A stretch of 64,000 nucleotides of DNA from Gemmatimonadetes bacterium T265 (lineage in GTDB: Bacteria > Gemmatimonadota > Gemmatimonadetes > Gemmatimonadales > Gemmatimonadaceae): contig BPUI01000002.1 of NCBI GenBank assembly GCA_019973575.1, positions 744,001 through 808,000 on the forward strand, written 5' to 3'. The position numbers and the translations under genes were made by a program. Shown piece after piece: positions 2,998-63,200 of this stretch (positions are counted from its first letter, which is position 1; each line of letters begins with the position of its first letter). The notes below the pieces were generated by a model. It saw only the letters and a list, made by a program, of their open reading frames with translations, searched no databases and was not told the DNA's origin.

Positions 2998-3609
2998 TCA
3001 GAGAAGGCGCCCCTGCGCGTCGTCGCGCCGGGGCACTTCGTGGCACGCGCGGCAGCGCGCCTCGTACGTGTCGGCCGCGCCGACCATGATCGTCGGCGAG
3101 TCGTAGGACGCAGGGCGGCCGCCGATGAGCCGCTGGTTGCGGCTGGCCGGCGCGCCGCAGAGCACGCAGATCGCGTGCAGCTTGTCGACGACTTCGGCGA
3201 CCGCCATGAGCTGCGGCATCGCGCCGAACGGCTCGCCGCGGAAGTCGGTGTCGGTCCCGGCGAGGACGACGCGCCGCCCGCGCGCGGCGAGCGCGGTCGC
3301 GACGTCGACGATCGCCGTGTCGAGGAACTGCGCCTCGTCGACCGCGACGACCTGCGCGCCCGGGTCGAGGCGGAGCATGAGCTGCCGCGCCGAGTCGATC
3401 GGCACCGCCTCGACCGTGCGGCGGTCGTGGCTCGACACGGCGAACACGCCCGCGTAGCGCGCGTCGAGGTGCGACTTGAACACCTGGACGCGCCGCTTCG
3501 CGATGAGCGCGCGCCGCACGCGCCGGATCAACTCCTCGCTCTTGCCGCTGAACATCACGCCGGCGACGACCTCGATCCAGCCGCCGGCGGTCTGGAACCC
3601 GTCTGGCAC
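2998..3609 (-). CDS. tdk: Thymidine kinase
   Basis: 203 residues, type II (TK1-like) thymidine kinase of the dTMP salvage pathway. The P-loop [11 protein letters not shown] spans residues 17-27 (Lys23), the DEAQF motif with the catalytic glutamate is at 91-95, and the structural zinc site is complete: C148-x2-C151 and C186-x2-C189. The lasso region with RNQRLIGG follows the first cysteine pair, and Tyr/Ser-rich residues follow it. GTG start. Only 12 bases separate it from the upstream DbpA-domain gene, so the two likely share a transcript. Confidence 0.95.
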
Positions 3610-3621
3610 GCGCGCCGGCCG

Positions 3622-5541
3622 TCAGCGTTCGGCGACGTCGTCGGGCGTCCCGCCGTGGGCTTCGCCGCGGGCGTCGTCGCCGCGCGGCGCGACGTTAGGC
3701 CGCGCGCGCCGCAGCCGCTCCGCGCGCTCCGCCCACTCGCCGCGCTGCTCGGCCCGCTCGCCGACGCCGCGGTCGTCGGGCACGCCGAACCCGCGGGGCC
3801 CGTCGCGGTTGGCGTCGAACCCGCGTCCGCCGCCGCTGAATCCGCCGCTGCCGAAGCCGCCGCGCGGGCGGTCGCCGCGCTCGGGGCGATCGCCCCGTTC
3901 GGCCCGGTCGCCGCGGTCGGGACGGTCCCCGCCGCGCGGCGCGCGCGGCCCGCGTGCGTCGCCCCGGCCGCCCGGCCCACCGCGCCCGGCACCGCCGGGC
4001 GGCGCGTCGCGTTCGGGCCGCACTGCGACGCGCCGCCCGCGGATCATCGTCCCGTTCAGCTTCGCGATCACCCGCTCGGCCGTCGCCGCGTCGACTTCGA
4101 CCAGCGAGAAGTTGTCGCGGAGCTCGATCCGTCCGATCTTGTCGCTCGTGATCCCGGCCTCGCCCGCGATCGCGCCGACGAGGTCGCCCGCGCGCACCTC
4201 GTCGCGCGTGCCGACCGTGAAGAACAGCCGGACGGTGCCCTTCGGCGGGGGGGCCGCGGGACCAGCGCCCGCCGTGACAGCCGCCGCCGGTGCGGGTGCG
4301 GTCGCGTGTCGGGCACGCTCGCGTTCCAGGATGCGTACGGCCGCCGCGGCGAGGTCGGCCGCGTCGTAGTCGGCGAGCAGCGGCTCGAGCGCGACGACCT
4401 CGCGCGGGGGGAGCCCGCGCTCGAGTTCGGCACGCAACTCACCACGCAATGCCTCGTCGCGCCCCCGGGCGCGGCGCGCGGCGTCGCCGAGGGTGAGCGG
4501 GCGCACGGCGCCCCCGACGAGCGTGCGGAGCGCCGCGAGTTGGCGCGGCTGCACGAGCGCGACCGTCTGGCTGGGCTGGGCGGCGAGCACGCGGTCGAGC
4601 GCCTCGCGCGTCGTCGGCACGTCGTAGAGCACGGCGAGCGCGACATGCGCCGGGAGCGCCGCGTCGCGCACGAGCGTGAGCGCGCCCGCGACCGCGGCGG
4701 CCGGCGCCGCGGCGAGCGCGTCCGCGCCGTGCGAATCAGCGGCGGTGTCGGGTCCGGCCTCGTCGGCCGGCGCGGTCGCCAGGCTCGGGTAGCCGAGCGT
4801 GGCGCGCAGGTGTCGCACCTCGCGCTCCGACGGCTCGCTCGCGACGACGACGGCCGCGGTCACGGGGTCGAGTTCGTCGAGGACGCGGCGGAGCGCCGCC
4901 GGGCGTGCGGCCGTGGCCGTGAGTACGTAGCCGATCGGCGCGGCGACGGGCGCCCCCGCCGCGGCGCCGTCGACGCGGCGCGCGCGCCAGAGGACGCGTT
5001 CGGCGAGGGCCTCGACGGCGTCGGTCATCTGTGCGGCGACGAGGATGCGAGCCGCCTCGCGCGGCACCTCCGCGAGCACGGCCTCGAGGTCGGCCGCGTC
5101 GGGGGAGGCGAGGATTTCGTCGGCCCAGGCGATCGCGAGCGTGCGCACGCCGTCGAGCTTGAGCGCCGCGCCGCGCACGAGGGCGGCGAGCGCGGCCGGT
5201 GTGCCGGCGACCGCCGCGGGCATGGAGCCGGCCGCCTGCCGCGCCGCGAGCTGGCGGGCGGCGCGCTCGGCGCGGCCGACGGGGAGCACGAGCGGGGTGC
5301 CACCCGCCTCGCCGCCGCCGCGGCGGGCGAGGGCGAGGTCGGCGACGGCGAGCGCCGTCTCGGGATCTGGCGTGACGACGAGAAGTTGCGGGCCACCCGC
5401 CTGGGGGTCGAGCCGGTCGAGCGGGGCGCCGAGGAAGGTGGGGATCGTGCCCCAGTCCTGCGGCAGCGTGTAGACGAGGTGCTGCGCGCGGCTGGCGGCG
5501 GGCGCGCTCTGCTCGGTGTCGGTCTCGGTCGTCTCGGTCAT
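3622..5541 (-). CDS. Degenerate DEAD-box-like protein with DbpA RNA-binding domain and RGG tail
   Basis: The ATG at 5541 was chosen because GGGAGAG precedes it by about 6 bases; this gives 639 residues. Residues about 437-510 form a DbpA-type RNA-binding domain (VRLFFTVGTRDEVRAGDLVG, then NGTMIRGRRVAV), and 511-639 is an Arg/Gly/Asp-rich RGG tail. The N-terminal 350 residues follow the order of DEAD-box helicase motifs but in decayed form: TPDPETALAVADLA (57-70) where motif Ia should be, GTPAAL (113-118) for motif Ib, AWADEIL (138-144) for DEAD, VAAQMT for SAT, and LVRDAALPAHVALAVLYDVP for motif V. No Walker A GKT is present, so ATPase activity is unlikely. It is probably a ribosome- or rRNA-associated RNA-binding protein derived from a helicase; this is inference. 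A G7 tract lies in the linker at about 4247. Confidence 0.75.
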   Translation of the reverse strand: MTETTETDTEQSAPAASRAQHLVYTLPQDWGTIPTFLGAPLDRLDPQAGGPQLLVVTPDPETALAVADLALARRGGGEAGGTPLVLPVGRAERAARQLAARQAAGSMPAAVAGTPAALAALVRGAALKLDGVRTLAIAWADEILASPDAADLEAVLAEVPREAARILVAAQMTDAVEALAERVLWRARRVDGAAAGAPVAAPIGYVLTATAARPAALRRVLDELDPVTAAVVVASEPSEREVRHLRATLGYPSLATAPADEAGPDTAADSHGADALAAAPAAAVAGALTLVRDAALPAHVALAVLYDVPTTREALDRVLAAQPSQTVALVQPRQLAALRTLVGGAVRPLTLGDAARRARGRDEALRGELRAELERGLPPREVVALEPLLADYDAADLAAAAVRILERERARHATAPAPAAAVTAGAGPAAPPPKGTVRLFFTVGTRDEVRAGDLVGAIAGEAGITSDKIGRIELRDNFSLVEVDAATAERVIAKLNGTMIRGRRVAVRPERDAPPGGAGRGGPGGRGDARGPRAPRGGDRPDRGDRAERGDRPERGDRPRGGFGSGGFSGGGRGFDANRDGPRGFGVPDDRGVGERAEQRGEWAERAERLRRARPNVAPRGDDARGEAHGGTPDDVAER

Positions 5542-5692: not shown

Positions 5693-5971
5693 ATGATCAC
5701 GACGATCGTGCTCATCAAGGCCGACCCGAAGTCGATCGTCGGGGCCGCCACGCGCATCGCCGGGTTCGACGGCGTGCACGAGGTCTACTCGGTCTCGGGC
5801 GAGTGGGACCTCGTCGCGGTCGTGCGCGTCGCGGAGTACGAGCGGATCGCCGACGTCGTGACGCACCAGATCGCGGGGGTGCCCGGCGTCGTGCGGACGC
5901 AGACGCTGACCGCGTTCCGCACCTACTCGAAGGCCGACCTCGAGCAGGCGTGGGACATCGGGGTCGAGTGA
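5693..5971 (+). CDS. Stand-alone Lrp/AsnC ligand-binding (RAM) domain protein
   Basis: 92 residues, equal to just the C-terminal RAM domain of Lrp/AsnC regulators, without the DNA-binding helix-turn-helix. The pattern is typical: hydrophobic first strand MITTIVLIKAD, helix, GVHEVYSVSGEWDLVAVVR, a second helix, then VRTQTLTAF. Stand-alone RAM proteins form rings and bind amino acids; they may act as metabolic sensors or modulate full-length Lrp proteins. The start is the first ATG after a possible TATCTT promoter box. It is divergent from the DbpA-domain gene and 29 bases before the NurA-like gene on the same strand. Confidence 0.85.
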   Translation: MITTIVLIKADPKSIVGAATRIAGFDGVHEVYSVSGEWDLVAVVRVAEYERIADVVTHQIAGVPGVVRTQTLTAFRTYSKADLEQAWDIGVE

Positions 5972-6000: not shown

Positions 6001-7011
6001 GTGCAGCCGAGCGTCCACGACGTCCGCCGCCGGCTCGGCGTGCTGTTGCCGGCGGCCGCGCTGGCCGGCGCCGACGACGGCCCGGGGCTCGAGCGGACGG
6101 CCGGGCCGCCGGTCGACCCGCCGCGGGTGCGCGCGGCCGCGCCCGTCGAAGGGCACGCCGTGCGGGCGCGCCCCGTGCCGCCCGCGCCCGGCGCGGAGGA
6201 CGGCTTCGCGGCATTCCTCGACGGGACCCAGCACTCGCGCGTGATCGGGTACGTCGACGGGCTGCCGGTCGTGCACGGGACGGTGGCGGCGGTCGTGCGC
6301 GTGCGCCGCAATCGACGCCTCACGACCTGGGGTCGCGGGCCGGTGGTCGAGCGGCGGGTGTACGCGCCGCTCGCCTGCTTCGCCGCGGCGCCCCGGGCGG
6401 CGCTCGACGCGCTCGCGCGCGAGCTCGGACTCGACCTCGTCGACACGGCGGAGCTCCGCCCGGGCGACGACGTCGTCCCGGCGCACCCGTTCGCGGTGAG
6501 CGACCGCGCGCTCGGGATGGTGAAGGAAGACCGCGAGCGGGCGGAGAAGTCGCTCGCCGAGCGCTGGTGCAGGCAGGAGCACGAGCCGCTATTCGTCGAC
6601 GGCGGGATCCAGGAGAGCGAGGTCGTCGCGCGCGCGGCGTGCGTGGCCGGCGTGGTCAAGAGCCACCGCACGCTCTACGTCGACGCGGACGCGTTGCGCA
6701 CGGTGCTCGCCCTCCGCCAGGGCGAGCGCTCGACGGCGTTCCTCGTCGGCAGCGCGCGCCGCACGGCGGTGGCGAGCTGGTACCTGCGGCTGCGCGACCC
6801 GTCCGGTCGCGACCCGATGTGGGGGCTCGTACGGGTCGAGGCCGCCGCGCCCGACGCGGGGGACGCGCCCGACGCGTTCACCGCGCGCGTCGACCGGCTG
6901 TCGCGCTGGGTGCTCGCGGAGGCCGCGCCGCTCTCGCTGCCGGACGCGCGGTGGGACAAGCTCGCCTACGGGGTGCACGACTGCGAGCAGTTCCTTCGCG
7001 CGGTGTGTTAG
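6001..7011 (+). CDS. NurA-like nuclease domain protein (tentative)
   Basis: A 336-residue protein with GTG start. Features resembling the NurA 5'-3' nuclease fold are an acidic Asp-Gly motif in FLDGTQHS (Asp74), a second hydrophobic-Asp-Gly-Gly motif FVDGGI (Asp200), the GVVKSHRTLYVD segment with Lys220, the strand pattern WGLVRVE (274-280), and an Asp/Lys-rich C-terminal helix. NurA usually works with the HerA/FtsK-like ATPase in end resection, but no such gene is in the window. The first 60 residues are Ala/Pro-rich and probably disordered. The TAG stop lies within a GTTAGGC heptamer. The family call rests on motif pattern only; it could be a different RNase H-like fold protein. Confidence 0.45.
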   Translation: MQPSVHDVRRRLGVLLPAAALAGADDGPGLERTAGPPVDPPRVRAAAPVEGHAVRARPVPPAPGAEDGFAAFLDGTQHSRVIGYVDGLPVVHGTVAAVVRVRRNRRLTTWGRGPVVERRVYAPLACFAAAPRAALDALARELGLDLVDTAELRPGDDVVPAHPFAVSDRALGMVKEDRERAEKSLAERWCRQEHEPLFVDGGIQESEVVARAACVAGVVKSHRTLYVDADALRTVLALRQGERSTAFLVGSARRTAVASWYLRLRDPSGRDPMWGLVRVEAAAPDAGDAPDAFTARVDRLSRWVLAEAAPLSLPDARWDKLAYGVHDCEQFLRAVC

Positions 7012-60251: not shown

Positions 60252-63200
60252 GTGGCACTCCCGACGCTTCTCGACGCGGTCGAGAACCTCCCCGCATTCA
60301 CGCGCCTCGTCCAGACGCTCCCCGGCCCCCGGGCCCGCGTCACGGTTGGCGGGCTGCACGGGTCGAGTGACGCGGTCCTGCTCGCCGCCGTCGCGCGCCG
60401 CTTCCCGCAGCGACTGTTCGTTCTGCTCGCGCCCACCGTCCCCGACGCGGAACGCTGGCTCGCCGATCTCGATTCGATCGGCGGCGGCGTGAAGACAGCG
60501 CTCTACCCGCACCGCGAATCGTTCGGCGAGGTCGAGGCGCACTCGGAGGTCGCGGGCGAGCGCGTCGAAACGCTGGAGCGCCTCACGCGCGGCGACGTGC
60601 AGCTGCTCCTCACGACGCCGCGCGCGGTCCTCGAGTGTACGCAGCTCGCCCGCGCGCTGCAGGACGCGCGGCTCGAGCTGCGCCGCGGCGACGTGTGGCG
60701 CCCCACCGACCTCGCCGCGCACCTCGACCGCGTCGGCTTCGAGCGCGTCCCGCTCGTCGATGACGTCGGCCAGTACTCCGTCCGCGGCGGGATCTTCGAC
60801 GTCTACGGCTTCGGCATGGCCGAGCCGGTGCGCCTGGAGTTCTGGGGCGACGAGGTCGCCGAGCTGCGCCACTTCGACCTCTACTCGCAGCGCTCGACGC
60901 GCGCGGCCGAGGTCGCGGTCGTCCTCCCCGTCGACGGCCGCCCGCACGGCGTCGGCGGCGGCGAACACGGCGCTACCGGCGGCGCGTTGGGCGCCGACGC
61001 CTTCGAGCGCGTCACGCTCGCCGAGCTCTGGACGCCCGACGCGGTGCTCTTCCTCCCCGACGGCCTCGACGCCGCGCTCGAGTTCCGCCGCACGTGGGAA
61101 GAGGCGCAGCACCACCTCGACCTCGCACGCCGCCGCGGCGAGGAGGTCACCCGCCGCGAGACGCTCTTCCTCGACCCGGCCGACGCCGCGCGCCGCCTCG
61201 CCGCGTTCGGCACGATCGCCGAGCTCGCCCCGGACCGCCCGGGCGCCGACCCCGCCGACGTCGGCTTCCCGACCCGCGCCCCGGAGCGGATCGACCGCGA
61301 CATCCGCGCGCTCCGCCGCCTCGTGCGCGACGGCCTGCCGACGATCATCCTCTGCGACAACCAGGGACAGGCCGAGCGGCTCGACGAGCTGCTGAACGAG
61401 GACGAGCGCCACCCGTCCCCCGCGGGGCTCGTCATCGGCGTGTTGGGCGGCGGGTTCGTCCTGCCGCCAGGGGTCGGGGTAGGGCAGGGGCTCCGCGTCC
61501 TCACCGACCACGAAATCTTCCGGCGCGACCGGCGCATCCGCCGCGCGCGCAAGTACAGCGCCGGCACCGCGCTCGACGCCGCGAGTGCGCTCAAGCCCGG
61601 CGACTTCGTCGTCCACCTGGAGCACGGCGTCGGCATTTACCGCGGCATCGAGACGAAATTCGTCGGCACGGGAACGATCGAGGTCGCCGTCATCGAGTAC
61701 GAGGGCGGCGACAAGCTCAACGTCCCGCTCTACCGCCTCGACCAGGTCGAGCGCTACCGCGCCGCCGGCGAGAACGACGGCGAGACTCCGCCGCCGCGGC
61801 TGCACAAGTTAGGCGGCAGGCGCTGGTCGCAGCAGCGCGACAAGACGCGCGCCGCGATCCAGGAGATGACCGTCGAGCTCTTGGACCTCTACGCGCGCCG
61901 CAAGGTCGCCGGACGGCCACCGCACGCCCCCGACGGCGCGTGGCAGCGCCAGCTCGAGTCGAGCTTCCTCTTCGAGGACACCCCCGACCAGCGCCGCGCG
62001 ACGACCGACGTCAAGCAGGACATGGAGGGCCCGCGCCCGATGGACCGCCTCCTCGTCGGCGACGTCGGCTACGGCAAGACCGAGATCGCCGTGCGCGCCG
62101 CCTTCAAGGCCGTGCAGGGCGGGCGCCAGGTCGCCGTCCTCGTCCCGACGACGATCCTCGCCGACCAGCACTACCGCACCTTCTCCGAGCGCTTCGCCGA
62201 CTTCCCGATCCGCGTCGAGGTCCTCTCGCGCTTCCAGGGCGCGAAGGAGCACACCGCCACGCTTTCGGCGCTCGCCGAGAAAAAAGTCGACGTCGTTATC
62301 GGCACGCACCGCCTGCTCTCGCCCGACGTCGTCTTCAAGGACCTGGGCCTCATCGTCGTCGACGAGGAGCACCGCTTCGGCGTTAAACACAAGGAGCGCC
62401 TGAAGCAGCTCCGCCTCGAGACCGACGTCCTGACGCTGACGGCGACGCCGATCCCACGCACGCTGCACCAGTCGCTCGCCGGGCTGCGCGACATGACGCT
62501 CATGCAGACGCCGCCGCGCGACCGCTCCCCCGTGCTCACCTTCGTCGAGCCGAGCATGGACGACGGCCTCATCGAGGAGGGCATCGCGCGCGAGCTCGAC
62601 CGCGGCGGCCAGGTCTTCTTCGTCCACAACCGCATCGAAACGATCGAGGCCGTCGCCGACCACATCCGCCGCATCGTCCCGCGCGCCCGCGTCGCCGTCG
62701 GCCACGGCCAGATGCGCGAGCGCGAGCTCGAAGAGGTGATGCGCCAGTTCGTCGCGGGCGAGGTCGACGTGCTCGTCTCGACGCTCATCGTCGAGACCGG
62801 GCTCGACGTGCCCAACGCGAACACGATGTTCGTCAACAACGCCCACCACTTCGGCCTCGCGCAGCTCTACCAACTGCGAGGCCGCGTGGGCCGCTCGCAC
62901 CGTCGCGCCTACTGCTACCTCATGGTGCCCGACGGGATCGACGAGGACGCCGAGCGCCGCCTCTCGGTGCTCGAGCACCACACGGAGCTCGGCGCCGGCT
63001 ACCGCGTCGCGCTCAAGGACATGGAACTCCGCGGCGCGGGCAACCTCCTCGGCCCTGAGCAGAGCGGCTTCGTCCACGCGGTCGGCTTCGACATGTACCT
63101 CCGCATGCTCGACGAGACCGTGCGCCGGCTCGCGAGCGGCGACACGCCGGCCAAGCCGACCCCGTCCGACGTCTCGCTCGACCAGCCCGCCTTCCTCCCC

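Follow-up and report, generated by a model that had tools for sequence, protein, structure and literature searches.

The gene at positions 3622 to 5541 (minus strand) of a 64,000-nucleotide stretch of the genome of Gemmatimonadetes bacterium T265 (contig BPUI01000002.1, positions 744,001 to 808,000; hereafter the window) encodes a protein of 639 amino acids, read from ATG to stop, that is almost certainly a pseudohelicase of DEAD-box descent. Taking the evidence together, we consider it likely that this is a conserved pseudohelicase of the CshA/DeaD/DbpA type with one old origin, in which the motifs have been erased while selection has kept the predicted fold, the putative dimerisation helices and, in this protein, the RNA-binding domain (RBD), and that it would serve as an ATP-independent RNA adaptor.

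DEAD-box ancestry of the protein

Residues 20 to 410 show homology to CshA/DeaD-type DEAD-box helicases, covering the two RecA domains and what in those enzymes are the dimerisation helices. In phmmer searches against the PDB, residues 36 to 410 align with CshA (5ivl, E 4.4e-13) and residues 37 to 185 with DeaD (5gju, E 1.3e-8), and a hidden Markov model (HMM) built from the pseudohelicase cores of the same family matches DEAD-box helicases of the canonical DbpA type along the greater part of their sequence, with E values from 1e-25 to 1e-43. Pfam recognises only the DbpA RNA-binding domain in the 639-residue protein and gives no DEAD match, but deeper relatives within the class lie above the Pfam DEAD cut-off (L047, E 4.5e-14; L064, E 6.5e-12; L072, E 2.5e-11). 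A preliminary description of the sequence had read a series of short segments as relicts of motifs Ia, Ib, II, III and V in the order in which a DEAD-box helicase carries them, and the phmmer alignment to CshA indicates that this order is correct. In that alignment, TPDPETALA (5347 to 5373, minus strand, like all features of the gene) lies under motif Ia, GTPAAL (5188 to 5205) under Ib, AWADEIL (5110 to 5130; canonical DEADE.L) under DEAD, and VAAQMT (5023 to 5040; canonical FSATM) under SAT; LVRDAALP (4651 to 4674) is placed under motif V in the multiple alignment.

The predicted structure points the same way. An AlphaFold model built from 13 sequences (mean predicted local distance difference test 78.5; predicted template modelling score, pTM, 0.42) consists of two alpha/beta domains, C-terminal helices and an RNA recognition motif (RRM). 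Its top Foldseek matches are DbpA (7pli/7pmq, E 2.4e-20) and CshA, and VIA gave a Z of 23.1 for the model against CshA. Within the RecA1-like domain (residues 20 to 193; 4963 to 5484), the model was compared with the RecA1 domains of CshA and DeaD (6aib, 5gju), to which residues 3 to 177/179 fit with a root-mean-square deviation of 2.0-2.1 Å over 164 residues. The RecA2-like domain (residues 200 to 352; 4486 to 4944) follows, and then the C-terminal helices (residues 353 to 414; 4300 to 4485), which resemble the dimerisation domain of CshA, Hera and DeaD and contain LEPLLADYDAADLAAAAVRILERE, where conservation of the core is highest. Profile matches and the predicted fold, with its two RecA domains, dimerisation helices and RRM, strongly support the pseudo-DEAD-box identity first proposed, and a fold unrelated to RecA domains was not seen.

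Loss of the catalytic motifs

Motifs I, II, III, V and VI of the protein are destroyed, in agreement with the earlier observation that the GKT of motif I is absent and that the DEAD and SAT segments lack catalytic residues. The position of motif I (Walker A; canonical ATGTGKTA) is occupied by PQDWGTIP (5440 to 5463), motif II reads AWAD and motif III AAQ, and the RecA2-like domain has lost motifs IVa, V and VI, with LDRVLAAQP (4573 to 4599) standing where HRIGRTGR would be expected. All the marks of an active DEAD-box enzyme, namely the GKT of Walker A, a DEAD with its catalytic Glu and the arginine fingers of HRxGRxGR, are missing.

We scored motif loss in 74 pseudohelicase proteins, among them 44 from the same family (f1) and 27 relatives from other families, in an alignment with 31 canonical DbpA-type and 16 RhlE-type helicases. 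An intact P-loop was looked for in the closest homologues, and the same-family orthologues have none (Walker A Lys 0/44); the first Asp of motif II is likewise found in 0/44 and the catalytic Glu in a single protein (1/44). Among the relatives from other families, most still have the motif I glycines (26/27) and the initial Asp in motif II (21/27), but the Walker A Lys occurs in two of the 27 and the catalytic Glu in none. The arginines of motif VI (R5/R8) occur in 0/44 same-family and 0/27 other-family proteins, and in 0/74 overall, bearing in mind that RecA2 motifs are aligned less surely than RecA1 motifs in proteins so diverged. We rejected the idea that the P-loop is missing through sequencing error or truncation of the assembly, as the replacement region is conserved across genera. 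The motif counts suggest that ATPase activity has been lost.

Maintenance by selection

Despite the loss of these motifs, the gene is not a decaying pseudogene. The dN/dS ratio of nonsynonymous to synonymous substitution (Nei-Gojobori) lies between 0.08 and 0.35 for the pseudohelicase core in 10 of 11 pairs, and the values for the RBD are similar or lower, although saturation and GC bias make all of these values rough. Invariant residues are found in the core, and the reading frames are intact across the family. Thus, the class has kept such a protein under selection, and it probably has a job other than unwinding.

Distribution, origin and graded decay

The protein was present in all 28 same-family genomes sampled (E <= 2.5e-94), and relatives were found in families f2 to f7 and f9 of the class Gemmatimonadetes; those that carry names are Gemmatimonadaceae and one metagenome-assembled genome of Gemmatimonas sp. 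A single-protein query gave no matches when genome contigs were scanned, so that a profile (A2) was needed, a second one (A1) being too diverse for scanning. Outside the class, three genomes of the phylum were searched with the A1 model; one gave a match, to a canonical helicase that carries GTGKT and DEAD. Thus, the conservation across Gemmatimonadota that had been proposed as a check holds for the same family and for the other families of the class named above, but the pseudohelicase family was not seen in the three phylum genomes outside it, which were the limit of our search.

In a tree of the core under a site-heterogeneous model, a branch with support 100/100 separates all 32 sampled pseudohelicase rows from the canonical DbpA-type and RhlE-type rows, a result to which long-branch attraction among eroded core sequences may contribute. 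A larger quick tree with 74 pseudohelicase rows shows the same split, as does a tree of the RBD, which is not eroded, with weak support (53/80). In addition, signatures shared within the RBD, such as IG[KR] in place of IGA, separate most pseudohelicases from canonical proteins. The best reading of these data is a single old origin, which would lie near the base of the class.

Several relatives retain parts of the ATP site. Two f6 proteins (L045 and L047) and one f9 protein (L189) keep GSGKT without the catalytic Glu, and the f7 protein L186 (1464 to 3263, minus strand) is the opposite intermediate, with VDEAD kept and the P-loop replaced by GAGSGHE, in which the Lys is missing. The f5 protein L192 retains a recognisable Q-motif region. 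HRxGRxGR was found in none of the class relatives examined, and neither was the full motif set. Provided that these proteins form a single clade, the most economical view would be that the catalytic motifs of RecA2 (V and VI, with the arginine fingers) were lost first and that the nucleotide pocket and other RecA1 motifs then decayed separately in each lineage. As a side observation, L189 (1597 to 3048, minus strand), L045 and L047 are DbpA-domain relatives that might bind ATP without hydrolysing it.

Putative dimerisation helices, RNA-binding domain and tail

The best-conserved stretch of the core lies in the dimerisation helices (residues 375 to 405), where the mean frequency of the most common residue is 0.71, compared with 0.42-0.52 in the RecA domains; windows of apparent conservation around residues 257 to 268 are an artefact of a gapped insertion. 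The region aligns with the C-terminus of CshA, and Pfam DeaD_dimer passes its cut-off only in L072 (E 2.3e-5) and is not called in the 639-residue protein.

The DbpA-type RBD had been described as intact, and this is what we find at residues 438 to 508 (4018 to 4230; PF03880, E 9e-25). Of the RGG tail that was reported along with it, the RG-rich character stands: the low-complexity tail (residues 509 to 639; 3625 to 4017) is rich in RG and RGG but has only three strict RGG triplets. Binding of RNA by the RBD, the tail or both may be expected from these features. The proposed target, 23S rRNA, fares less well. The RBD keeps the I/V-G-x-I/V main-chain guanine pocket known from the RBDs of YxiN and Hera, but Gly is found where YxiN has K427, the residue in contact with the loop uridine of 23S rRNA hairpin 92 (PMC3695512). 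A 23S rRNA target cannot be claimed, as this lysine, through which YxiN reads the hairpin 92 loop, has not been retained even though the guanine pocket has; 23S rRNA is at most a weak candidate. Nor is the RBD invariant, since many same-family copies have no detectable DbpA domain. Of the ATP-independent RNA-binding descendant that was first suggested, helicase descent is well founded and the choice of 23S rRNA is not.

The same-family orthologues in which no DbpA domain was detectable include L123, L125-L129, L133, L134, L141, L147, L153-L156 and L158. Where such a protein was read over its whole length, the core is followed directly by a long tail of RG/RGG-rich repeats, in place of the DbpA domain.

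Gene neighbourhood and other helicases

The usual order in same-family genomes is lrp - pseudohelicase - tdk - coaE - gcvH. In the window, the genes downstream are those for thymidine kinase (tdk, 2998 to 3609), dephospho-CoA kinase (coaE, 2312 to 2920) and the glycine cleavage H protein (gcvH, 1878 to 2267), all on the minus strand, and a protein with an Lrp/AsnC ligand-binding domain is encoded divergently (5693 to 5971, plus strand). At the tdk loci examined, the pseudohelicase gene adjoins tdk, usually with coaE and gcvH downstream and the divergent Lrp-like gene upstream, and a similar arrangement is found in the order relatives L087 and L090. Clustering of neighbours by all open reading frames was not used, being swamped by antisense frames in high-GC DNA. 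A gene without a Pfam match (6001 to 7011, plus strand) is likewise a recurrent neighbour of the lrp/tdk locus, both throughout the family and among order relatives, and at the far end of the window another DEAD-domain match (61980 to 62468, plus strand; E 2.3e-25) lies in an open frame of 1505 residues.

In 16 f5 loci (L038, L061, L064-L067, L069, L070, L072, L073, L075, L079, L083, L085, L086 and L092), a canonical RhlE-type helicase gene is located about 2-5 kb upstream of the pseudohelicase gene on the opposite strand. A tandem duplication beside a canonical helicase in f5 was rejected, given the type, strand and distance of this gene.

Possible roles and alternative explanations

Under the reading that we prefer, the pseudohelicase would dimerise through its C-terminal helices and hold structured RNA without ATP by means of the DbpA domain, the RG-rich tail or both. 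The dead RecA1-RecA2 core would then act as an adaptor or chaperone, a passive platform on which RNA or active RNA-processing enzymes dock. On this mechanism, that of an ATP-independent RNA-binding adaptor and dimerising scaffold, our judgement is evenly divided. Four observations weigh against the reading. The core residues that contact RNA (the Arg of Ia, the Gly and Arg of Ib, and IVa) are also mostly gone, and thus there may be no direct contact between the core and RNA. A model built around the DbpA domain loses force because 14 of the 44 same-family proteins have no detectable one, although this is not an unbiased rate, since the set was partly picked for lacking a DbpA match. One pair, L052/L055, has a core dN/dS of 0.64 at low synonymous divergence. 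Finally, the pTM of the model leaves the relative placement of its two RecA domains uncertain. That many same-family copies lack a detectable DbpA domain indicates that the core, and not the RBD, is what selection keeps.

A different role for that core is possible, though we doubt it: the protein could be a regulatory subunit that pairs, via the shared dimerisation helix, with one of the cell's active helicases in mixed dimers, and would activate, inhibit or recruit that helicase. The conservation of the helix and the nearby RhlE-type gene in f5 fit this idea, and two canonical proteins that could be partners are encoded in the genome of the window, a DbpA-type helicase (C1:2362809) and a further DEAD-box protein (C1:2944231). 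Nevertheless, a second DbpA-domain protein is absent from several of the f1 and f5 genomes that carry the pseudohelicase, and Hera has been described as a stable homodimer (PMC3695512). We would similarly put forward only as a tentative proposal that the pseudohelicases are a class-wide family whose age is close to that of the class itself. The RecA2 motifs would have been lost once and the ATP site eroded in parallel; the core would have turned, as a dimer, to regulating active RNA helicases, with RG-rich tails taking the place of the RBD several times.

It is quite improbable that the protein is an enzyme of an unusual kind, in which replacement residues still allow a nucleotide to be bound or hydrolysed. 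Motif II retains its final Asp in 37 of the 44 f1 proteins, a Trp stands at the Glu position in 25 of 44, and GSGKT survives in the three proteins mentioned above, but the Walker A Lys, the catalytic Glu and the motif VI arginines are missing almost throughout, and the lost positions hold varied residues that form no conserved substitute pocket. Still less credible is a degenerating gene without function: motif losses do differ in combination among lineages, as erosion might produce, but dN/dS values well below 1 contradict it, as do the intact frames, the invariant core residues and the single locus across the family. Chance likeness of an Ala- and Arg-rich protein to RecA domains, which the high-GC, Ala-rich sequence and the missing Pfam DEAD match might suggest, can practically be dismissed, as DEAD-box-specific profile and fold matches cover both domains in order and intermediate relatives exceed the Pfam cut-off.

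Relation to known systems and significance

CshA, DeaD and Hera are the best sequence and structure matches of the pseudohelicase, which differs from them in lacking all ATPase motifs, most core RNA-contact motifs and motif Q. With DbpA and YxiN, the helicases of 23S rRNA hairpin 92, it shares the DbpA-type RRM and the guanine pocket, but not the catalytic motifs or YxiN K427. The closest parallels in kind are two pseudohelicases. One is Utp25, a non-catalytic protein of the yeast small-subunit processome with a DEAD-box fold and vestigial motifs kept by selection (PMC9539457). Utp25 has been described as the second proposed pseudohelicase, after PriA of Deinococcus radiodurans (PMC9539457, PMC4504706), and in the open-access literature that we searched only these two proteins were given that name. 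The features by which Utp25 was so classed are also found here, namely non-functional motifs and a conserved helicase structure, the latter as a prediction, and the selection described above is compatible with a probable biological function without catalysis. In contrast to Utp25, which is eukaryotic and acts in small-subunit assembly, the present family is bacterial, extends across a class, includes a DbpA domain and shows graded loss of its motifs. D. radiodurans PriA is likewise a bacterial helicase homologue with variant motifs, but it is a DNA helicase of another family that acts in replication restart, and its loss of activity was shown by assay (PMC4504706). No bacterial family of DEAD-box pseudohelicases was found in the open-access literature, subscription papers lying outside the search.

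The series of intermediates, from GSGKT without the catalytic Glu and DEAD without the P-loop Lys to proteins in which nothing is left, would allow the order in which parts of the cycle are lost to be tested. The textbook example of RNA remodelling driven by ATP is the DEAD-box protein. If our reading is true, a whole bacterial class has kept a dead copy under selection, which would mean that the fold is useful for something that does not involve ATP.
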